DNA of 46,707 nucleotides from Caldimicrobium sp. (GTDB taxonomy: Bacteria; Desulfobacterota; Thermodesulfobacteria; Thermodesulfobacteriales; Thermodesulfobacteriaceae), in the NCBI GenBank assembly GCA_009903935.1, contig WYEG01000039.1, forward strand, positions 1 through 46,707, given 5' to 3'. The position numbers and the translations under genes are program-made. Under the pieces are notes generated by a model that worked only from the letters and a program-made list of their open reading frames with translations, was not told where the DNA came from and ran no database searches. This document shows, in pieces, positions 1,849-38,883 of the stretch; positions within the stretch are counted from its first letter, which is position 1, and each line of letters opens with the position of its first letter.

Positions 1849-2712
1849 ATGTATTTAGTTTTTATTCTTGCAGTAAGCAAAGATGTAGCACCTCTCATCG
1901 AGGAGGAGCTTTATAGCATAGCAAGGTCAGGCTGGGAATACGAGGAAAGGGATTTAGAGGTGATTTTTAAGTTCTACTTCCCTTTAAACTTGGAAAAAAA
2001 GGACTCAGACCTCCTCGAACATCTACATTCTCTGAGCCAAAAATACGATGTGGCAAGGATTGAGCTTTCCCTTCAGCCTAAGGAGAAGTGGGAGGAGATT
2101 TGGAAGTATAACTTCCCGCCCCTTAAGGTAGGAAAGAGGTTTTTAGTGCTTCCACCTTGGGAGGAAGGGGAGGAAGAGGAGGGAAGGATCAAGGTTATCA
2201 TCTATCCAGGGCAAGCCTTTGGAACAGGGCATCATGCCACAACACAACTTATGCTTGAAAATCTTGATGAATTTTTAGAGGGGAAAGAGGACAAACCTCT
2301 AAGAGTTCTTGACATGGGTTGCGGGAGCGGGATTTTAGCCATTGCGGTGGCAAAGCTTTGCCCAAAGGCAAGCATCCTTGCGGTAGATATAGATGAACTT
2401 GCCCTTTCTGCAACCTATGAGAACGCCGAAAGAAATAAGGTCTTAAGTCAGGTGAAAATTGCCAAAGAAGTTCCGGAGGAAGAAAGGGATAAAAAGTTCG
2501 ACCTCATCCTTGCCAACATCGGGCAAAAAGAACTAAAAGCCCTCTCCCCTCTTTTTAAGGAGCTAAGCAAGCCTGGAGACACCTATCTCATGCTCTCTGG
2601 TTTCTTTAAAGAGGATGCTGAGGATATTTTTAGACATTATTTTCAACTTGGGTTCAAGAAGGTGAAATCTCAGTTTTTACGGGAATGGGGTTTTCTTATG
2701 CTTAGGCTTTAG
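1849..2712 (+). CDS. prmA: Ribosomal protein L11 methyltransferase PrmA
   Basis: AdoMet-dependent methyltransferase that trimethylates ribosomal protein L11. The sequence shows GQAFGTGHHATT (about residues 123-134), the AdoMet motif I VLDMGCGSGILA (about 152-163), the acidic VDID after beta-2, and LILANIG in the motif IV position, which are the PrmA hallmarks. An N-terminal region of about 90 residues matches the substrate-recognition domain. Length 287 aa is typical. ATG is preceded by GGGGTAAG that overlaps the end of murJ. Probably the distal gene of a murJ-prmA transcript. Confidence 0.92.
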   Translation: MYLVFILAVSKDVAPLIEEELYSIARSGWEYEERDLEVIFKFYFPLNLEKKDSDLLEHLHSLSQKYDVARIELSLQPKEKWEEIWKYNFPPLKVGKRFLVLPPWEEGEEEEGRIKVIIYPGQAFGTGHHATTQLMLENLDEFLEGKEDKPLRVLDMGCGSGILAIAVAKLCPKASILAVDIDELALSATYENAERNKVLSQVKIAKEVPEEERDKKFDLILANIGQKELKALSPLFKELSKPGDTYLMLSGFFKEDAEDIFRHYFQLGFKKVKSQFLREWGFLMLRL

Positions 2713-2739
2713 GTTGATTGTTTGGTATAAAAATTCATC

Positions 2740-2767
2740 TTGACTTTAAAAAAAAATCCATTATAAA
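2740..2767 (+). promoter_or_regulatory. Promoter for yjbQ, leaderless arrangement
   Basis: TTGACT (2740-2745), a 16-bp spacer and TATAAA (2762-2767) end 6 bp before the ATG at 2774. A start 6-8 bp after the -10 would fall on or next to the ATG. No Shine-Dalgarno sequence is present between the -10 and the ATG. Confidence 0.65.
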
Positions 2768-2773
2768 AATTGT

Positions 2774-3163
2774 ATGCTCGAGGTAATAAATGTAAAAACA
2801 ACAAGAAAGACAGAATTAATAGACATAACTCATGAGATAGAAAAACTTTTGCCTAACAAAGATGGCATTTGTATCCTTTTTAATCCCCATACAACAGCAG
2901 GTCTTATTGTCAATGAAGGGGCTGACCCCTCAGTTAAAGAGGATATTTTAGCCATATTCTCTCAACTTGCTCCTGAAAAATTCCCCTACAAGCACCTTGA
3001 AGGTAATTCCCCCGGTCATGTAAAGTCTGCCCTTACAGGACCTACCCTTATTCTTATCGTTGAAAAAGGAAAGCTTCTCCTTGGCACCTGGCAAAAGGTC
3101 TTCTTTGCCGAATACGATGGACCAAGGAATAGAAAGGTTTTTCTAAAATTTATCGAGGGATAG
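2774..3163 (+). CDS. yjbQ: YjbQ/UPF0047 family protein
   Basis: Small single-domain protein of the UPF0047/YjbQ family; members have weak thiamin-phosphate-synthase-like activity, but the cellular role is not settled. Recognised by FNPHTTAGLIVNEGADPSV (about residues 37-55), YKHLEGNSPGHVKSALTG (about 77-94) and the C-terminal LGTWQKVFFAEYDGPR. The conserved His residues in the PHTT and H-x-E-G regions are present. Length 129 aa is normal. The ATG has no ribosome site and sits 6 bp after a -10 box, so it is a candidate leaderless gene. It heads a two-gene unit with the TPR lipoprotein 4 bp downstream. Confidence 0.9.
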   Translation: MLEVINVKTTRKTELIDITHEIEKLLPNKDGICILFNPHTTAGLIVNEGADPSVKEDILAIFSQLAPEKFPYKHLEGNSPGHVKSALTGPTLILIVEKGKLLLGTWQKVFFAEYDGPRNRKVFLKFIEG

Positions 3164-34943: not shown

Positions 34944-35591
34944 TTAATCTTCCTGCTTTTCCAAGGGGCATCCGCTGCAGGAAGGAGACTTGGTTTTACA
35001 GTAGGTCTTTCCGCAGGCTACAAGCAAGGCATGAAACTCCTTAAAAAGGTTTAGGTCGGAAGGCAGGTTATTCATGAAAAATTCCTGAAGCTCATCATAG
35101 GTTATTTCTTCCGAGGCTAAAGAGTGTCTATGTAAAATCCTGTAGGTGTAGGCATCAACTACAAAGATTGGATAATCAAGAGCGTAGAGAAGGATGGAGT
35201 CAACCGTCTCCTTCCCAAGCCCCGAGACTCCTAAAAGCTCATCCCGAACCTTCTTTAAGTCTTTGCCGCGAAGCCTCTCTATTTCACCCTCGTATTTTTC
35301 AACAAGAAAGGATATAAAGTTTTTCAAGCGCTTAGCTTTAACATTGTAGCAGCCGCAGGGTCTGATGAGCTCCGCTAAGGTCTTTTGGTCAAGTTGGTAG
35401 AGTGCTCTTGGTGAAAGAAGACCCTTGGCTTTAAGTTTTTGGATAGCCCTTTCCACATTTTTCCAGTTTGTGCCTTGAGTAAGGATGGCACCTACGCAGA
35501 CTTCAAAAGGGGTTTCAGCAGGCCACCAGCCTTGCGGTCCAAAATGCTCAAACAAACGCTCATACATCTCAAGGAGAAGTTTAGAACTCAT
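34944..35591 (-). CDS. MagIII/endonuclease III-related DNA glycosylase
   Basis: 215 aa HhH-GPD protein. The helix-hairpin-helix is LLGVSGLGKETVDSILL (about 119-135) and the catalytic Asp is Asp146 in VVDAYTYR. The Lys that makes endonuclease III a lyase falls on Glu128, so a monofunctional glycosylase like Helicobacter MagIII (3-methyladenine) is favoured. Cys198, Cys205 and Cys208 have the C-x6-C-x2-C spacing of the [4Fe-4S] loop, but the chain ends before the usual fourth Cys; Cys193 may replace it. Its start overlaps the 3' end of the fusion gene by 11 bp, so translation is probably coupled. Confidence 0.85.
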   Translation of the reverse strand: MSSKLLLEMYERLFEHFGPQGWWPAETPFEVCVGAILTQGTNWKNVERAIQKLKAKGLLSPRALYQLDQKTLAELIRPCGCYNVKAKRLKNFISFLVEKYEGEIERLRGKDLKKVRDELLGVSGLGKETVDSILLYALDYPIFVVDAYTYRILHRHSLASEEITYDELQEFFMNNLPSDLNLFKEFHALLVACGKTYCKTKSPSCSGCPLEKQED

Positions 35592-37920
35592 AACGGAACT
35601 TCAAAACCCTTGTTTTTCCATCCTTCTCAAACAGGCGATAGCCAAGGCGAGAAAGCTCATCCCTTATTCTATCTGCCGTCTCATAATCTAATTCTTCCTT
35701 TGCTTTATCCCTTCTTTTAGCAAGCTCTAATATCTCCTTATCTAACACCTCTTCAGGAAAGGCAAGAATTTTATGGACTTTGTTGAATTCTTTAAGATAG
35801 GCAAAAAGAGAAGACTTAAACCCTATGGGTAAGCCTTCTTTTGTGGCCTGATAAACCCTTTTTAAAAGGGTTATAAGCTCCGATATCGCAAGAGGGGAGT
35901 TAAGGTCCTCCTTCAGGGCGTTTTCCCACTTAGCCTTAAAGCTCTCAAGAGACTGCCAAAGCCCTTCCTTTTGTTCTTCGGATAAGACTTTTTCTTCCGT
36001 GATGGCAATCTGTCCTAAATAGGTTTCAAGCTTCTCAAGGAGCCTTTTTGCCTGCTCAAGCGCTGAAAAACTAAGGTTTAGCTTACTTTTATAATGGGCT
36101 TGAAGAAAAACTAACCTTAGATGCCTTCCCTCGTATCCTTGTTTTTTGATATCTTCGATAGTTATTCGGTTCTCAGAGGAGAGCCTTTTACCCTCAAAGT
36201 AAGTTAGCCCCGTTGCCAAGTAATATCTTGCAAGCTCTTTGCCGGTTAAAGCCTTGGCTACTGCACGGGTATTTTCGATGTGAGGAAAGATCAGGTCTTC
36301 GCCTGAGATGAAGATATCAAAGGTTTCCCCAAGGTATCTTAAGGCAAGGCAAGCGCAATGGATGTGCCAGGTTGGACGAACCCTTCCAAAGGGAGTTTCC
36401 ACAAAATATCCAGCCTTCATCTCCAGAATATGCACCCTTTTAAGAAGGGCAAAATCAGCAGGCTCTTCTTTCTCGTATTCCTCAGCATCTATAGGCTCTC
36501 TGTCCTTCATCGTCTTTAAGTCAAGCTTTACAAGCTTCCCATACTCTGGAAATCTTGAAACATCAAAATAAACGGCTGAAAACTTTTCATAGGCTTTGTT
36601 CTTTTGCATTAGCTCCAAAGCAAAGTTTTTCATATCCTCTAAGTGTTCGCTAACCTTTGGACAGAGGTTTGGCTTATCAATGGCTAAAAACTCAAGGTCC
36701 TCAAAGAACTGAGCCTCGATTTCTGAGGTCAAATCTTTGAGGGGGCGGTTTTGGTTCAAGGCAGAAGCTATGGTTTTGTCGTCAAAATCGGTAAAGTTCA
36801 TAACCCAGAATACTTCATAGCCCTTATGTTCTAAATATCTTTTAAGGAGGTCTGCGGTCAAAAGTCTACGGTAAAGACCCAGGTGAGGTCTGATGTTAAG
36901 CGTTGGTCCGCAGGTGTATAGCTTAAGCCTGGCCTTTTCAAGAGGGATAAAGGGCTCACGCTTTCCGCTAAGGAGGTTCGAGAGGATTAAATCAGCCTTT
37001 GCCTCTTTTTCTTCAAAGGACCAAAGAGGGGTAGAAAGATAGCGCTCGCCAGAATCAGGGAATATAACGACGATCAATCCTTCATCTATCTCCTCAGCAA
37101 GCTTAAGAGCACCCGCTAAAGCACAGCCTGAGCTCATGCCAACAAAAATCCCTTCCTTCTTGGCAAGCCATCTTGCCATCTCGTAGGCTTCCTCATCAGG
37201 AACATTGATGACCCTATCAAGGAGGCTTCGGTCAAAGATACCCGGCGGGAAGGATTCTTTCATGTTTTTAAGTCCTTGAATTTTGTGCCCCGGATAAGGC
37301 TCAATGCCAACCACCTTGAAAGGCAAGCCAAAGTCCTTAGCATACCGGGCAATGCCCATTGCCGTCCCTGTTGTGCCAAGACCACAGACTACATACCGAA
37401 CTTTCCCCTCTGTTTGAGCCCAGACCTCTGGAGCAGTTCCACGGTAGTGGGCTTGCCAGTTTGCTGGGTTGTTAAACTGGTCAGGACAAAAGTATTTAGC
37501 AGGGTTTTCTCGAACAAGGTCGTAAACAAATTCAATGGCTCCGTCTGTGCCCTTTTTAGCAGGGGTCAAAATTATCTCTGCCCCGAAGGCTTGCATGATT
37601 TTTCTTCTCTCAACGGATGCAGACTCAGGCATGGCGATCATGCATTTGTAGCCCTTTACGGCACAAACTAAGGAAAGACCAATGCCCGTATTTCCGCTTG
37701 AAGCTTCTACCACTATTTTATCCTTTGTAAGAATGCCCTTAGCCTCAGCATCCTCTATCATGGAGAGGGCTATGCGGTCTTTAATAGAGCCTCCAGGGTT
37801 TACAGATTCAATCTTTCCCCAAATTTCGACCGTAGGCTTGACCTTAATCTTGTTTAGCCTTACAATAGGAGTGTTTCCAATCCTATGAAGAATGTTCTCA
37901 AATCGTATATAGGTTTGCAT
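35581..37920 (-). CDS. Cysteine synthase fused to a CysRS-like domain
   Basis: 779 aa. Residues 1-300 are a complete O-acetylserine sulfhydrylase: PLP Lys47 (GGSIKDR), SSGNTG (74-79), GLGTTGTAMG (181-190) and PDSGERYLST near 289-298. Residues 313-779 align along their whole length with cysteinyl-tRNA synthetase: LYTCGPT (Cys337), WVMNFTDFDDKTI, WHIHC (Cys522), FPHIEN (His547), and the C-terminal tail AKEELDYETADRIRDEL. The class I signatures are lost: HIGH is HLGL (346-349), KMSKS is RLSSE (579-583), the HGGG loop is FISG, and the fourth zinc ligand Glu is Thr551. Three zinc ligands remain. Cysteine synthesis is expected; tRNA charging is doubtful. Heads an operon with the glycosylase and GGDEF genes. 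Confidence 0.93.
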   Translation of the reverse strand: MQTYIRFENILHRIGNTPIVRLNKIKVKPTVEIWGKIESVNPGGSIKDRIALSMIEDAEAKGILTKDKIVVEASSGNTGIGLSLVCAVKGYKCMIAMPESASVERRKIMQAFGAEIILTPAKKGTDGAIEFVYDLVRENPAKYFCPDQFNNPANWQAHYRGTAPEVWAQTEGKVRYVVCGLGTTGTAMGIARYAKDFGLPFKVVGIEPYPGHKIQGLKNMKESFPPGIFDRSLLDRVINVPDEEAYEMARWLAKKEGIFVGMSSGCALAGALKLAEEIDEGLIVVIFPDSGERYLSTPLWSFEEKEAKADLILSNLLSGKREPFIPLEKARLKLYTCGPTLNIRPHLGLYRRLLTADLLKRYLEHKGYEVFWVMNFTDFDDKTIASALNQNRPLKDLTSEIEAQFFEDLEFLAIDKPNLCPKVSEHLEDMKNFALELMQKNKAYEKFSAVYFDVSRFPEYGKLVKLDLKTMKDREPIDAEEYEKEEPADFALLKRVHILEMKAGYFVETPFGRVRPTWHIHCACLALRYLGETFDIFISGEDLIFPHIENTRAVAKALTGKELARYYLATGLTYFEGKRLSSENRITIEDIKKQGYEGRHLRLVFLQAHYKSKLNLSFSALEQAKRLLEKLETYLGQIAITEEKVLSEEQKEGLWQSLESFKAKWENALKEDLNSPLAISELITLLKRVYQATKEGLPIGFKSSLFAYLKEFNKVHKILAFPEEVLDKEILELAKRRDKAKEELDYETADRIRDELSRLGYRLFEKDGKTRVLKFRYEF
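37838..37866 (+). promoter_or_regulatory. Promoter for the L,D-transpeptidase gene, inside the fusion gene
   Basis: TTGACC (37838-37843), 17-bp spacer, TACAAT (37861-37866). Predicted start near 37873, 11-12 nt before the ATG at 37885. It lies within the first 30 codons of the fusion gene on the other strand. Confidence 0.6.
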
Positions 37921-38883
37921 AAGGATTTCTCCCTTTTAAAAATCCTTCTTTGGACTTTGCTACTATTTTACCCTTTAGGAGCCCCTTGCCAAGGCAGTGA
38001 TGGGGTTATACTTTCGGCAAATTTTAGCACTGAACGAGCCGTCTACTTTCAGAACAAGGAATATGTCATTAAAGATAAGGACACTCTTGTTGACCTTGCG
38101 GTAGCCTTTAAGGTTGGCTATCAACACCTGGTTAGCGCAAACCCTGGGGTTGATCCTTGGGTCCCCCCACCTGGAAAAAAGATCATCATTCCTTATCAGG
38201 TCATTATCCCTCAAGACTTTCTTTACCCCGAGAGGACTTATATCCTGATAAATTTTCCGGAGATGAGGCTTTATTTTTTTTACGCAAACAAGCTCTATGT
38301 TTTCCCCGTTGGTATAGCTGACGAAGGTAAGATAACTCCGGAAGGAACCTACACAGTTGTGAGAAAGCAGGAAAAGCCTACCTGGTATCCTCCCCCTTCA
38401 ATCTTAGCTGAAGACCCGACCTTGCCAAAGGTTGTCCCACCAGGACCTGATAATCCCCTCGGGGATTATGCCCTCTACTTAGACCGAGGTAATTACCTTA
38501 TTCACGGGACAAACAAAGAGGAAAGCGTAGGACGGAGAACAACCCATGGTTGCTTTCGCCTCTATAAAGAACACATAGCTTTTCTTTATCAGAATGTTCC
38601 CTTAAAAACTAAGGTTTTCATCGTCTACCAACCCTTCAAGGTTGCCATTGAGGGGAAAAAGATATTTCTGCAAGTCTTTCCAGACTTTGAAAAGCGCATA
38701 CAAAATCCCTTCTATCATGTTTTAAGGAAAATTTCAGCCCTTGCTGAGCTAAGAGGGGAAGACTTTAGGCTAAACCTTCTAAAGCTTGAAGAGGCGCTCG
38801 AAAGAGCAGACGGTTTAGTCTATGAAGTGGGAAGGCTTACTAAGCCCTCCTCGCAAACCTCTTCTTCACGAGAAAAAAGGTAA
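37885..38883 (+). CDS. LysM-containing L,D-transpeptidase (YkuD/ErfK family)
   Basis: 332 aa. Residues 1-38 form a signal peptide or anchor; LysM-like sequence follows (YVIKDKDTLVDLAVAF...LVSANPGVDPW, about 60-105). The YkuD domain (about 115-265) has LIHGTN and the catalytic RRTTHGCFRL with Cys223 and His221. It forms 3-3 peptidoglycan crosslinks or attaches proteins to peptidoglycan in the periplasm. The start at 37885 lies inside the divergent fusion gene (36-bp overlap) and is supported by the promoter at 37838-37866; a TTG at 37915 is an alternative. Its 3' end overlaps lpxC by 44 bp. Confidence 0.9.
   Translation: MKNVLKSYIGLHKDFSLLKILLWTLLLFYPLGAPCQGSDGVILSANFSTERAVYFQNKEYVIKDKDTLVDLAVAFKVGYQHLVSANPGVDPWVPPPGKKIIIPYQVIIPQDFLYPERTYILINFPEMRLYFFYANKLYVFPVGIADEGKITPEGTYTVVRKQEKPTWYPPPSILAEDPTLPKVVPPGPDNPLGDYALYLDRGNYLIHGTNKEESVGRRTTHGCFRLYKEHIAFLYQNVPLKTKVFIVYQPFKVAIEGKKIFLQVFPDFEKRIQNPFYHVLRKISALAELRGEDFRLNLLKLEEALERADGLVYEVGRLTKPSSQTSSSREKR
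37965..37992 (-). promoter_or_regulatory. Promoter for the cysK-cysS-like operon, inside the transpeptidase gene
   Basis: Minus strand TTGGCA (37992-37987), 16-bp spacer, TAAAAT (37970-37965). Predicted start near 37958, giving a leader of about 38 nt with GGGAG about 8 nt before the ATG at 37920. Confidence 0.6.

Follow-up and report, generated by a model that had tools for sequence, protein, structure and literature searches.

Why would a bacterial cysteine synthase carry what appears to be a cysteinyl-tRNA synthetase (CysRS) at its C terminus? The question is raised by a gene on the minus strand of contig WYEG01000039.1 (assembly GCA_009903935.1) from Caldimicrobium sp., a member of the family Thermodesulfobacteriaceae; the whole 46,707-nucleotide stretch analyzed here is referred to below as the window. 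A single open reading frame (ORF), from the ATG at position 37920 to the stop codon at 35583-35581, encodes a protein of 779 amino acids that combines a CysK/CysM-type cysteine synthase with a CysRS-like domain. Judging from its sequence, this protein is most likely a working cysteine synthase with a retired CysRS as its C-terminal half. That half very probably lacks aminoacylation activity, and the pattern of retained residues makes it likely that it still binds tRNA-Cys.

Domain architecture of the fusion protein

Pfam searches assigned residues 12 to 289 of the fusion protein to the PALP family (257 bits) and residues 325 to 625 to tRNA-synt_1e (254 bits). Among the NCBIfam models, the cysteine synthase model cysKM (TIGR01136) gave 363 bits, above its cut-off of 344, and the cysS model (TIGR00435) gave 315 bits, below its cut-off of 340. 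The CysK half has the pyridoxal phosphate (PLP) lysine, K47 (positions 37782-37780), and the SSGNTG and GTTGT loops, and qualifies as a cysteine synthase. In the AlphaFold2 model (mean pLDDT, 90.5), both halves are confidently predicted and are connected by a loose linker at residues 295 to 305. A Foldseek search of the PDB with this model returned CysRS structures first (8qhp and the E. coli CysRS-tRNA-Cys complex 1u0b), followed by cysteine synthases. The ORF, the domain matches, and the model thus agree with the sequence-only reading of the locus, according to which one ORF joins a complete CysK to a full-length CysRS-like domain. An assembly artefact, frameshift, or sequencing error joining two genes could be ruled out: the same architecture is present in dozens of independent genomes, and the fusion is therefore the product of neither chance nor a sequencing error.

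Residues lost and retained in the CysRS-like domain

Alignment with E. coli CysRS, whose residue numbering (H37, K269, R423, etc.) is used here for CysRS positions, reproduced every motif reading previously made by eye. In the window protein, HIGH is replaced by HLGL and KMSKS by RLSSE, so that both signatures of an active CysRS, HIGH and the second lysine of KMSKS, are lost; HGGG is replaced by FISG, and the zinc ligand E238 by T551. The other three of the four zinc ligands (C337, C522, and H547), the TDFDDK region, and the C-terminal tail are retained. In the tail, R737, K741, Y746, D750, and R753 align with R423, R427, W432, D436, and R439 of the E. coli protein; the lineage of the window protein has Lys in place of R427, Tyr in place of W432, and Glu in place of D451, with R423 and D436 retained. 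The family is a broad one, and the window protein ranks among its more degraded representatives.

Across that family, 94 CysRS-like domains were aligned. Loci retrieved with a sequence motif are bound to match at some positions, so the retention figures below are those of the 34 members found by similarity. None of the 94 domains combines H37, G39, and H40 with K269, and K269 itself is found in only one of them; HIGH and the second KMSKS lysine have been lost in differing ways across the clades. Most members have acquired new fixed residues, P30 and R43 (giving CGPT and RR), T225-S226, and K/R265, which adjoin the old ATP motifs in the sequence and could bind some other ligand or merely repack the site. 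These near-invariant residues, along with K266, retained in 90 of the 94 domains, favor an enzyme that is still active through an altered ATP site, either as a second CysRS or as a ligase like MshC, an option included in the sequence-only reading. However, the clade-by-clade loss of the catalytic signatures, the destruction of the site in one family (f37; see below), and the presence of a canonical CysRS all make such an activity very unlikely. As for MshC in particular, a relative of that enzyme could be dismissed, given the loss of the ATP motifs and a score of 143 bits with TIGR03447, far under its cut-off of 485.

The same lysines bear on another activity of the parent enzyme. CysRS forms cysteine persulfide via PLP bound to K73, K76, K266, and K269, all four of which are needed in the E. 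coli protein (PMC5660078). This chemistry, and the location of the gene downstream of dsrMKJOP in one Desulfobulbia-type lineage, would suit persulfide synthesis or sulfur transfer at a CysRS-type PLP-lysine site, which had been considered conceivable. Yet K76 and K269 are mostly replaced, K73 is found in only 55% of the domains, and the window protein keeps K73 alone of the four, so that this role has to be regarded as highly improbable.

In the 34 members found by similarity, HIGH was retained in 54 of 102 alignment cells (53%), KMSKS in 65 of 136 (48%), and the GGG loop in 28 of 102 (27%). The figures were 120 of 136 (88%) for the zinc ligands (C28, C209, H234, and E238) and 65 of 68 (96%) for T68 and W205, the cysteine contacts of CysRS structures. 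The residues that contact G34 of tRNA-Cys, namely, R423, R427, the aromatic residue at position 432, and D436 (PMC12684709), were retained in 133 of 136 cells (98%; 98 to 99% in the family). In these alignments, no feature of the CysRS-like domain persists more strongly than the residues contacting the anticodon.

The pattern is also seen in family f37, which is represented by three genomes (loci L184, L185, and L186 in G037, G106, and G073). Its members have lost C28, C209, E238, T68, HIGH, GGG, and KMSKS, leaving the zinc ligands at 25% and the three catalytic motifs at 0%, but all 12 of the 12 G34 contacts are there, as are R439, G446, and D451 in all three proteins. The CysS_C domain was recognized by Pfam in all three (over the cut-off in two; maximum, 45 bits), whereas the score of the catalytic domain was down to 108 to 136 bits; the structure model still folds as CysRS.

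These data also bear on the possibility that the CysRS-like half is a sensor of free cysteine, the product binding at the zinc site and exerting feedback on the synthase, in analogy to HisZ and histidine, with no tRNA involved and the anticodon domain a mere passenger. Most members keep all the zinc ligands as well as T68 and W205 while the ATP motifs are lost, which is what such a sensor would look like. However, f37 has kept both the fusion and the anticodon contacts despite the loss of T68 and of three of the four zinc ligands; E238 is missing in the lineage of the window protein; and a passenger domain would not be expected to hold the G34 contacts at 98 to 99%. A sensor of this kind is therefore unlikely.

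Phyletic distribution, descent, and selection

A search of 148 genomes of the phylum with the CysRS-like half identified the fusion in about 57 of them, as single open frames of ∼700 to 930 amino acids (one is longer). This count includes one broken copy: in a complete single-contig genome, the CysRS-like half (L187, G014:C1:2736000-2740000) contains a frameshift and a further in-frame TGA. In addition, one genome per GTDB species was scanned with the motif HT[S]G.DL.FPH[HN]ENE, which represents only one variant of the family. The scan yielded 77 loci with the match in the CysRS-like half. Their titles refer to Deltaproteobacteria, Thermodesulfobacteriota, Desulfo- and related names, or unspecific Proteobacteria, and no clearly different phylum is named among these 77 loci of a single variant. 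A split form, with adjacent genes for CysK and the CysRS-like protein, was found at 5 loci of one lineage (L048, L053, L092, L097, and L099), where the latter gene begins directly where the CysK gene stops, either in a different frame or beyond a stop codon. No description of a CysK-CysRS-like fusion or of this family was found in a search of the open literature.

Other unusual CysRS-type proteins were seen in the course of this survey. Three genomes of one family, which also carry the CysK-CysRS-like fusion, encode a further CysRS-type protein of 729 to 742 amino acids (L149, G058:C27; L150, G020:C1; L151, G094:C20) with HIGN or HLGN and KMAKS motifs, which runs on into what by eye is a glycosyltransferase-2-like C-terminal domain. 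L152 (G026:C163, ORF ∼1902-3086) encodes a second CysRS in which HLGH and KMSKS are intact but the C-terminal anticodon domain is missing, resembling the published domain pattern of CysRS* (see below).

In the CysRS tree, a branch with 100% support separates all 39 CysRS-like domains included, from fusion and split forms alike, from the canonical CysRS. Likewise, the CysK halves form one group (100%) in the CysK tree, distinct from the stand-alone CysM and O-acetylserine sulfhydrylase (OASS) of the phylum. The neighborhoods of the stand-alone CysM genes showed no CysRS-like gene. The window protein groups with its own family and next with Thermosulfurimonas and other Thermodesulfobacteriaceae. 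The split clade falls outside the fusions in the CysK tree (88%) but inside them in the CysRS tree (97%), so that the two trees conflict on the order, split first or fusion first.

The ratio of nonsynonymous to synonymous substitution rates (dN/dS) in close pairs was ∼0.05 to 0.16 for the CysRS-like half and ∼0.03 to 0.15 for the CysK half, with higher values for wider pairs in both. These low values indicate that the CysRS-like half is maintained under purifying selection. A decayed pseudogene half is ruled out in general by the dN/dS of ∼0.1, although the G014 copy is broken and, in the family of the window protein, the CysRS-like half evolves at two to three times the rate of the CysK half.

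Canonical CysRS, cysteine synthases, and tRNA-Cys

The genome from which the window comes (1.56 Mb, 97% complete) was searched family by family. As the sequence-only reading had recommended, a separate canonical cysS was looked for, and one was found (G000:C59:36817-38262; 494 amino acids, HLGH and KMSKS intact). Across the phylum, every adequately assembled genome with the fusion encodes a separate CysS; the gaps correspond to fragmented assemblies, and in two genomes (G023 and G135) the separate CysS is only partial. The fusion protein thus cannot be the organism's only CysRS. Typing of all 37 tRNA matches in the genome of the window organism gave a single tRNA-Cys, with the anticodon GCA, which excludes a special second tRNA-Cys. 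An Rfam search detected no riboswitch or T-box upstream of the fusion gene.

The other PALP proteins of this genome are TrpB and ThrC, and the fused enzyme is therefore the only cysteine synthase found in it by the family-by-family search. No serine acetyltransferase of this genome reaches the cut-off. In the survey, a clear serine acetyltransferase was missing from 30 of the 57 fusion genomes, including this one, versus 23 of the 91 others (Fisher P = 0.0014, uncorrected for relatedness). This absence hints at the O-phosphoserine route, but the C. jejuni CysM uses O-acetylserine (PMC9855970). The family of the window organism lacks a clear serine acetyltransferase, with cysteine synthase present.

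The same absence would fit tRNA-dependent cysteine synthesis, in which the CysK half converts a precursor carried on tRNA-Cys that is held by the other half; the joining of a PLP enzyme to a tRNA-Cys-binding fold is formally similar to the SepRS-SepCysS system. However, SepRS did not score over the cut-off in any of the 148 genomes, and a canonical CysRS is present. Besides, the SGNTG loop, which holds the amino acid substrate by its free carboxylate, is invariant. Such synthesis is accordingly highly improbable.

Predicted function of the CysRS-like half

The presence of a separate canonical CysRS, the family-wide loss of the catalytic signatures, and strong selection on the domain argue strongly for a changed job instead of aminoacylation, as had been proposed from the sequence. 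Since the residues that read the anticodon of tRNA-Cys outlast the other features, the proposed job is the sensing or holding of tRNA-Cys; of the options considered initially, sensing of tRNA-Cys or cysteine to control CysK appears to fit best. The CysRS-like half would no longer form cysteinyl-adenylate or Cys-tRNA but would still hold tRNA-Cys via its anticodon-binding domain and, in most relatives, would also bind free cysteine on the zinc. It would signal the status of tRNA-Cys and cysteine to the attached synthase, so that, for example, uncharged tRNA-Cys would switch the synthase on or cysteine would turn it down. Alternatively, it would keep the synthase close to tRNA-Cys. Control or tethering of the synthase through the tRNA-Cys-binding half is a weaker proposition than the binding itself, and the chances for and against it appear about equal.

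Docking without any allostery could be considered as well, with the CysRS-like half serving as a scaffold that brings the synthase to the translation machinery (tRNA-Cys, canonical CysRS, and EF-Tu), where cysteine would be passed on locally. The retention of the tRNA contacts fits this scheme equally, and so does the flexible linker. However, cysteine is small and diffuses freely, so that channelling seems rather improbable.

Several observations weigh against tRNA-dependent control. The pTM of the AlphaFold2 model is 0.64, and the relative placement of the two halves is poorly fixed. The gene context shows no direct link to tRNA. In f37, 9 of 16 conserved C-terminal positions are kept, as opposed to 7 of 30 active-site positions (P = 0.03) and 50 of 149 positions elsewhere (P = 0.066); its members show no greater overall amino acid identity in the C-terminal domain than in the remainder of the half. 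With the contrast this modest over all conserved positions, the retention pattern of f37 is good but not decisive evidence for tRNA reading. Finally, the Pfam domain CysS_C, present in 43 of 50 family members, is absent from the matches of the window protein, and this, along with the drift of the contact residues, means that tRNA binding may be weaker in its lineage. Because two of its four contact residues are substituted (R427K and W432Y), the window protein provides a weaker basis for the tRNA-Cys proposal than the family does.

Gene neighborhoods

The coordinates of the fusion gene and its features are listed in Table 1. An endonuclease III-like gene (34944-35591, minus strand) shares 11 bases with the 3' end of the fusion gene, which suggests translational coupling; this gene order recurs in the family of the window organism and in Thermosulfurimonas. 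On the other side, a divergent L,D-transpeptidase-like ORF (37885-38883, plus strand), taken from its listed start, has 36 bases in common with the 5' end of the fusion gene, and its true start is probably located further inside the listed ORF.

Table 1. Features of the fusion gene in the window
Feature	Residues	Positions	Strand	Evidence
Fusion gene, cysteine synthase (CysK/CysM type) and CysRS-like pseudo-synthetase	779 aa	35581..37920	-	ORF, translation, Pfam/NCBIfam, AlphaFold2
Ribosome-binding site GGGAG, upstream of ATG 37920		37929..37933	-	Sequence
Cysteine synthase half	1-300	37021..37920	-	TIGR01136 over cut-off; PDB neighbors CysM, OASS
CysRS-like half	311-775	35596..36990	-	Pfam tRNA-synt_1e, 254 bits; best Foldseek matches CysRS structures
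HLGL replacing HIGH, then family signature RR (351-352)	346-349	36874..36885	-	Alignment with E. coli CysRS
RLSSE replacing KMSKS	579-583	36172..36186	-	Alignment
C-terminal tail homologous to CysRS anticodon-binding domain	728-776	35593..35739	-	Alignment

Among the 64 loci with a readable upstream gene, 16, mostly from a Desulfobulbia-type lineage, have a DsrP homolog directly upstream on the same strand. At one of them (L058:295-7921), the fusion gene follows, on the same strand, a whole dsrMKJOP set in which every protein scores above its NCBIfam cut-off. This adjacency links the fusion enzyme to sulfide production in that lineage. In other lineages, the neighbors encode endonuclease III, L,D-transpeptidase-like, MurJ-like, or ARMT1-like proteins, with no obvious connection.

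Comparison with known systems and implications

The CysRS-like half resembles bacterial CysS in its full-length fold, including the C-terminal domain, and in the zinc site of most members (Foldseek matches 8qhp and 1u0b) but differs in that HIGH, GGG, and KMSKS are degraded, that it is joined to a cysteine synthase and coexists with the canonical CysS, and that it forms its own group in the tree. The CysK half is a complete PLP enzyme like CysM and CysK, with TIGR01136 over the cut-off in the window protein; unlike the stand-alone CysM and OASS of the phylum, it belongs to a separate group and carries the extra half.

A precedent for the principle is HisZ, an adenylation-dead HisRS paralog that regulates histidine biosynthesis (PMC9437257): in both cases, a catalytically dead synthetase paralog is tied to a biosynthetic enzyme of the same amino acid. 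Unlike HisZ, a regulatory subunit of HisG, the CysRS-like half derives from a class I enzyme, is fused instead of being a separate subunit, and retains tRNA contacts. The HisRS-like domain of Gcn2, a sensor of uncharged tRNA (PMC4335047) and a further precedent, shares with it the synthetase-like fold and, if tRNA binding by the fusion is as predicted, the tRNA signal; Gcn2 differs in being a eukaryotic kinase, with a class II domain and an unrelated enzyme partner. The chances are about even that the CysRS-like half works in the manner of either system, as a pseudo-synthetase binding tRNA-Cys and controlling or anchoring the synthase. MshC, the ATP-dependent mycothiol ligase of actinobacteria, is also a CysRS paralog, but the fusion has lost the ATP site and kept the anticodon domain. 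CysRS* of Desulfobacterales, a noncanonical paralog in related bacteria that aminoacylates SelC* and has no anticodon-binding domain (PMC9437257) and whose gene is linked to selC*/selB*, shows the opposite pattern to the fusion family, which keeps the C-terminal anticodon domain (by Pfam, in 43 of 50 members).

In a 2022 review of synthetase paralogs, MshC and CysRS* were the only ones listed as derived from CysRS (PMC9437257). The CysRS-like half of the fusion would be the third, found in about two-fifths of the sampled genomes of a major sulfur-cycling phylum. Many members exceed the cut-off of the cysteine-tRNA ligase model (e.g., 421 versus 340 bits at L058), so that automatic annotation may label a nonsynthetase as a synthetase. 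In some genomes, including that of Caldimicrobium sp., no cysteine synthase other than the fused enzyme was found. If tRNA-Cys does control this enzyme, the state of a tRNA would directly determine, at the protein level, how much of its amino acid is supplied. It is conceivable, if doubtful, that the enzyme is tRNA gated or tRNA dependent, with tRNA-Cys switching it or even carrying the precursor for the CysK half; this would represent a second, unrelated route that builds tRNA-Cys into cysteine synthesis, beside SepRS-SepCysS.

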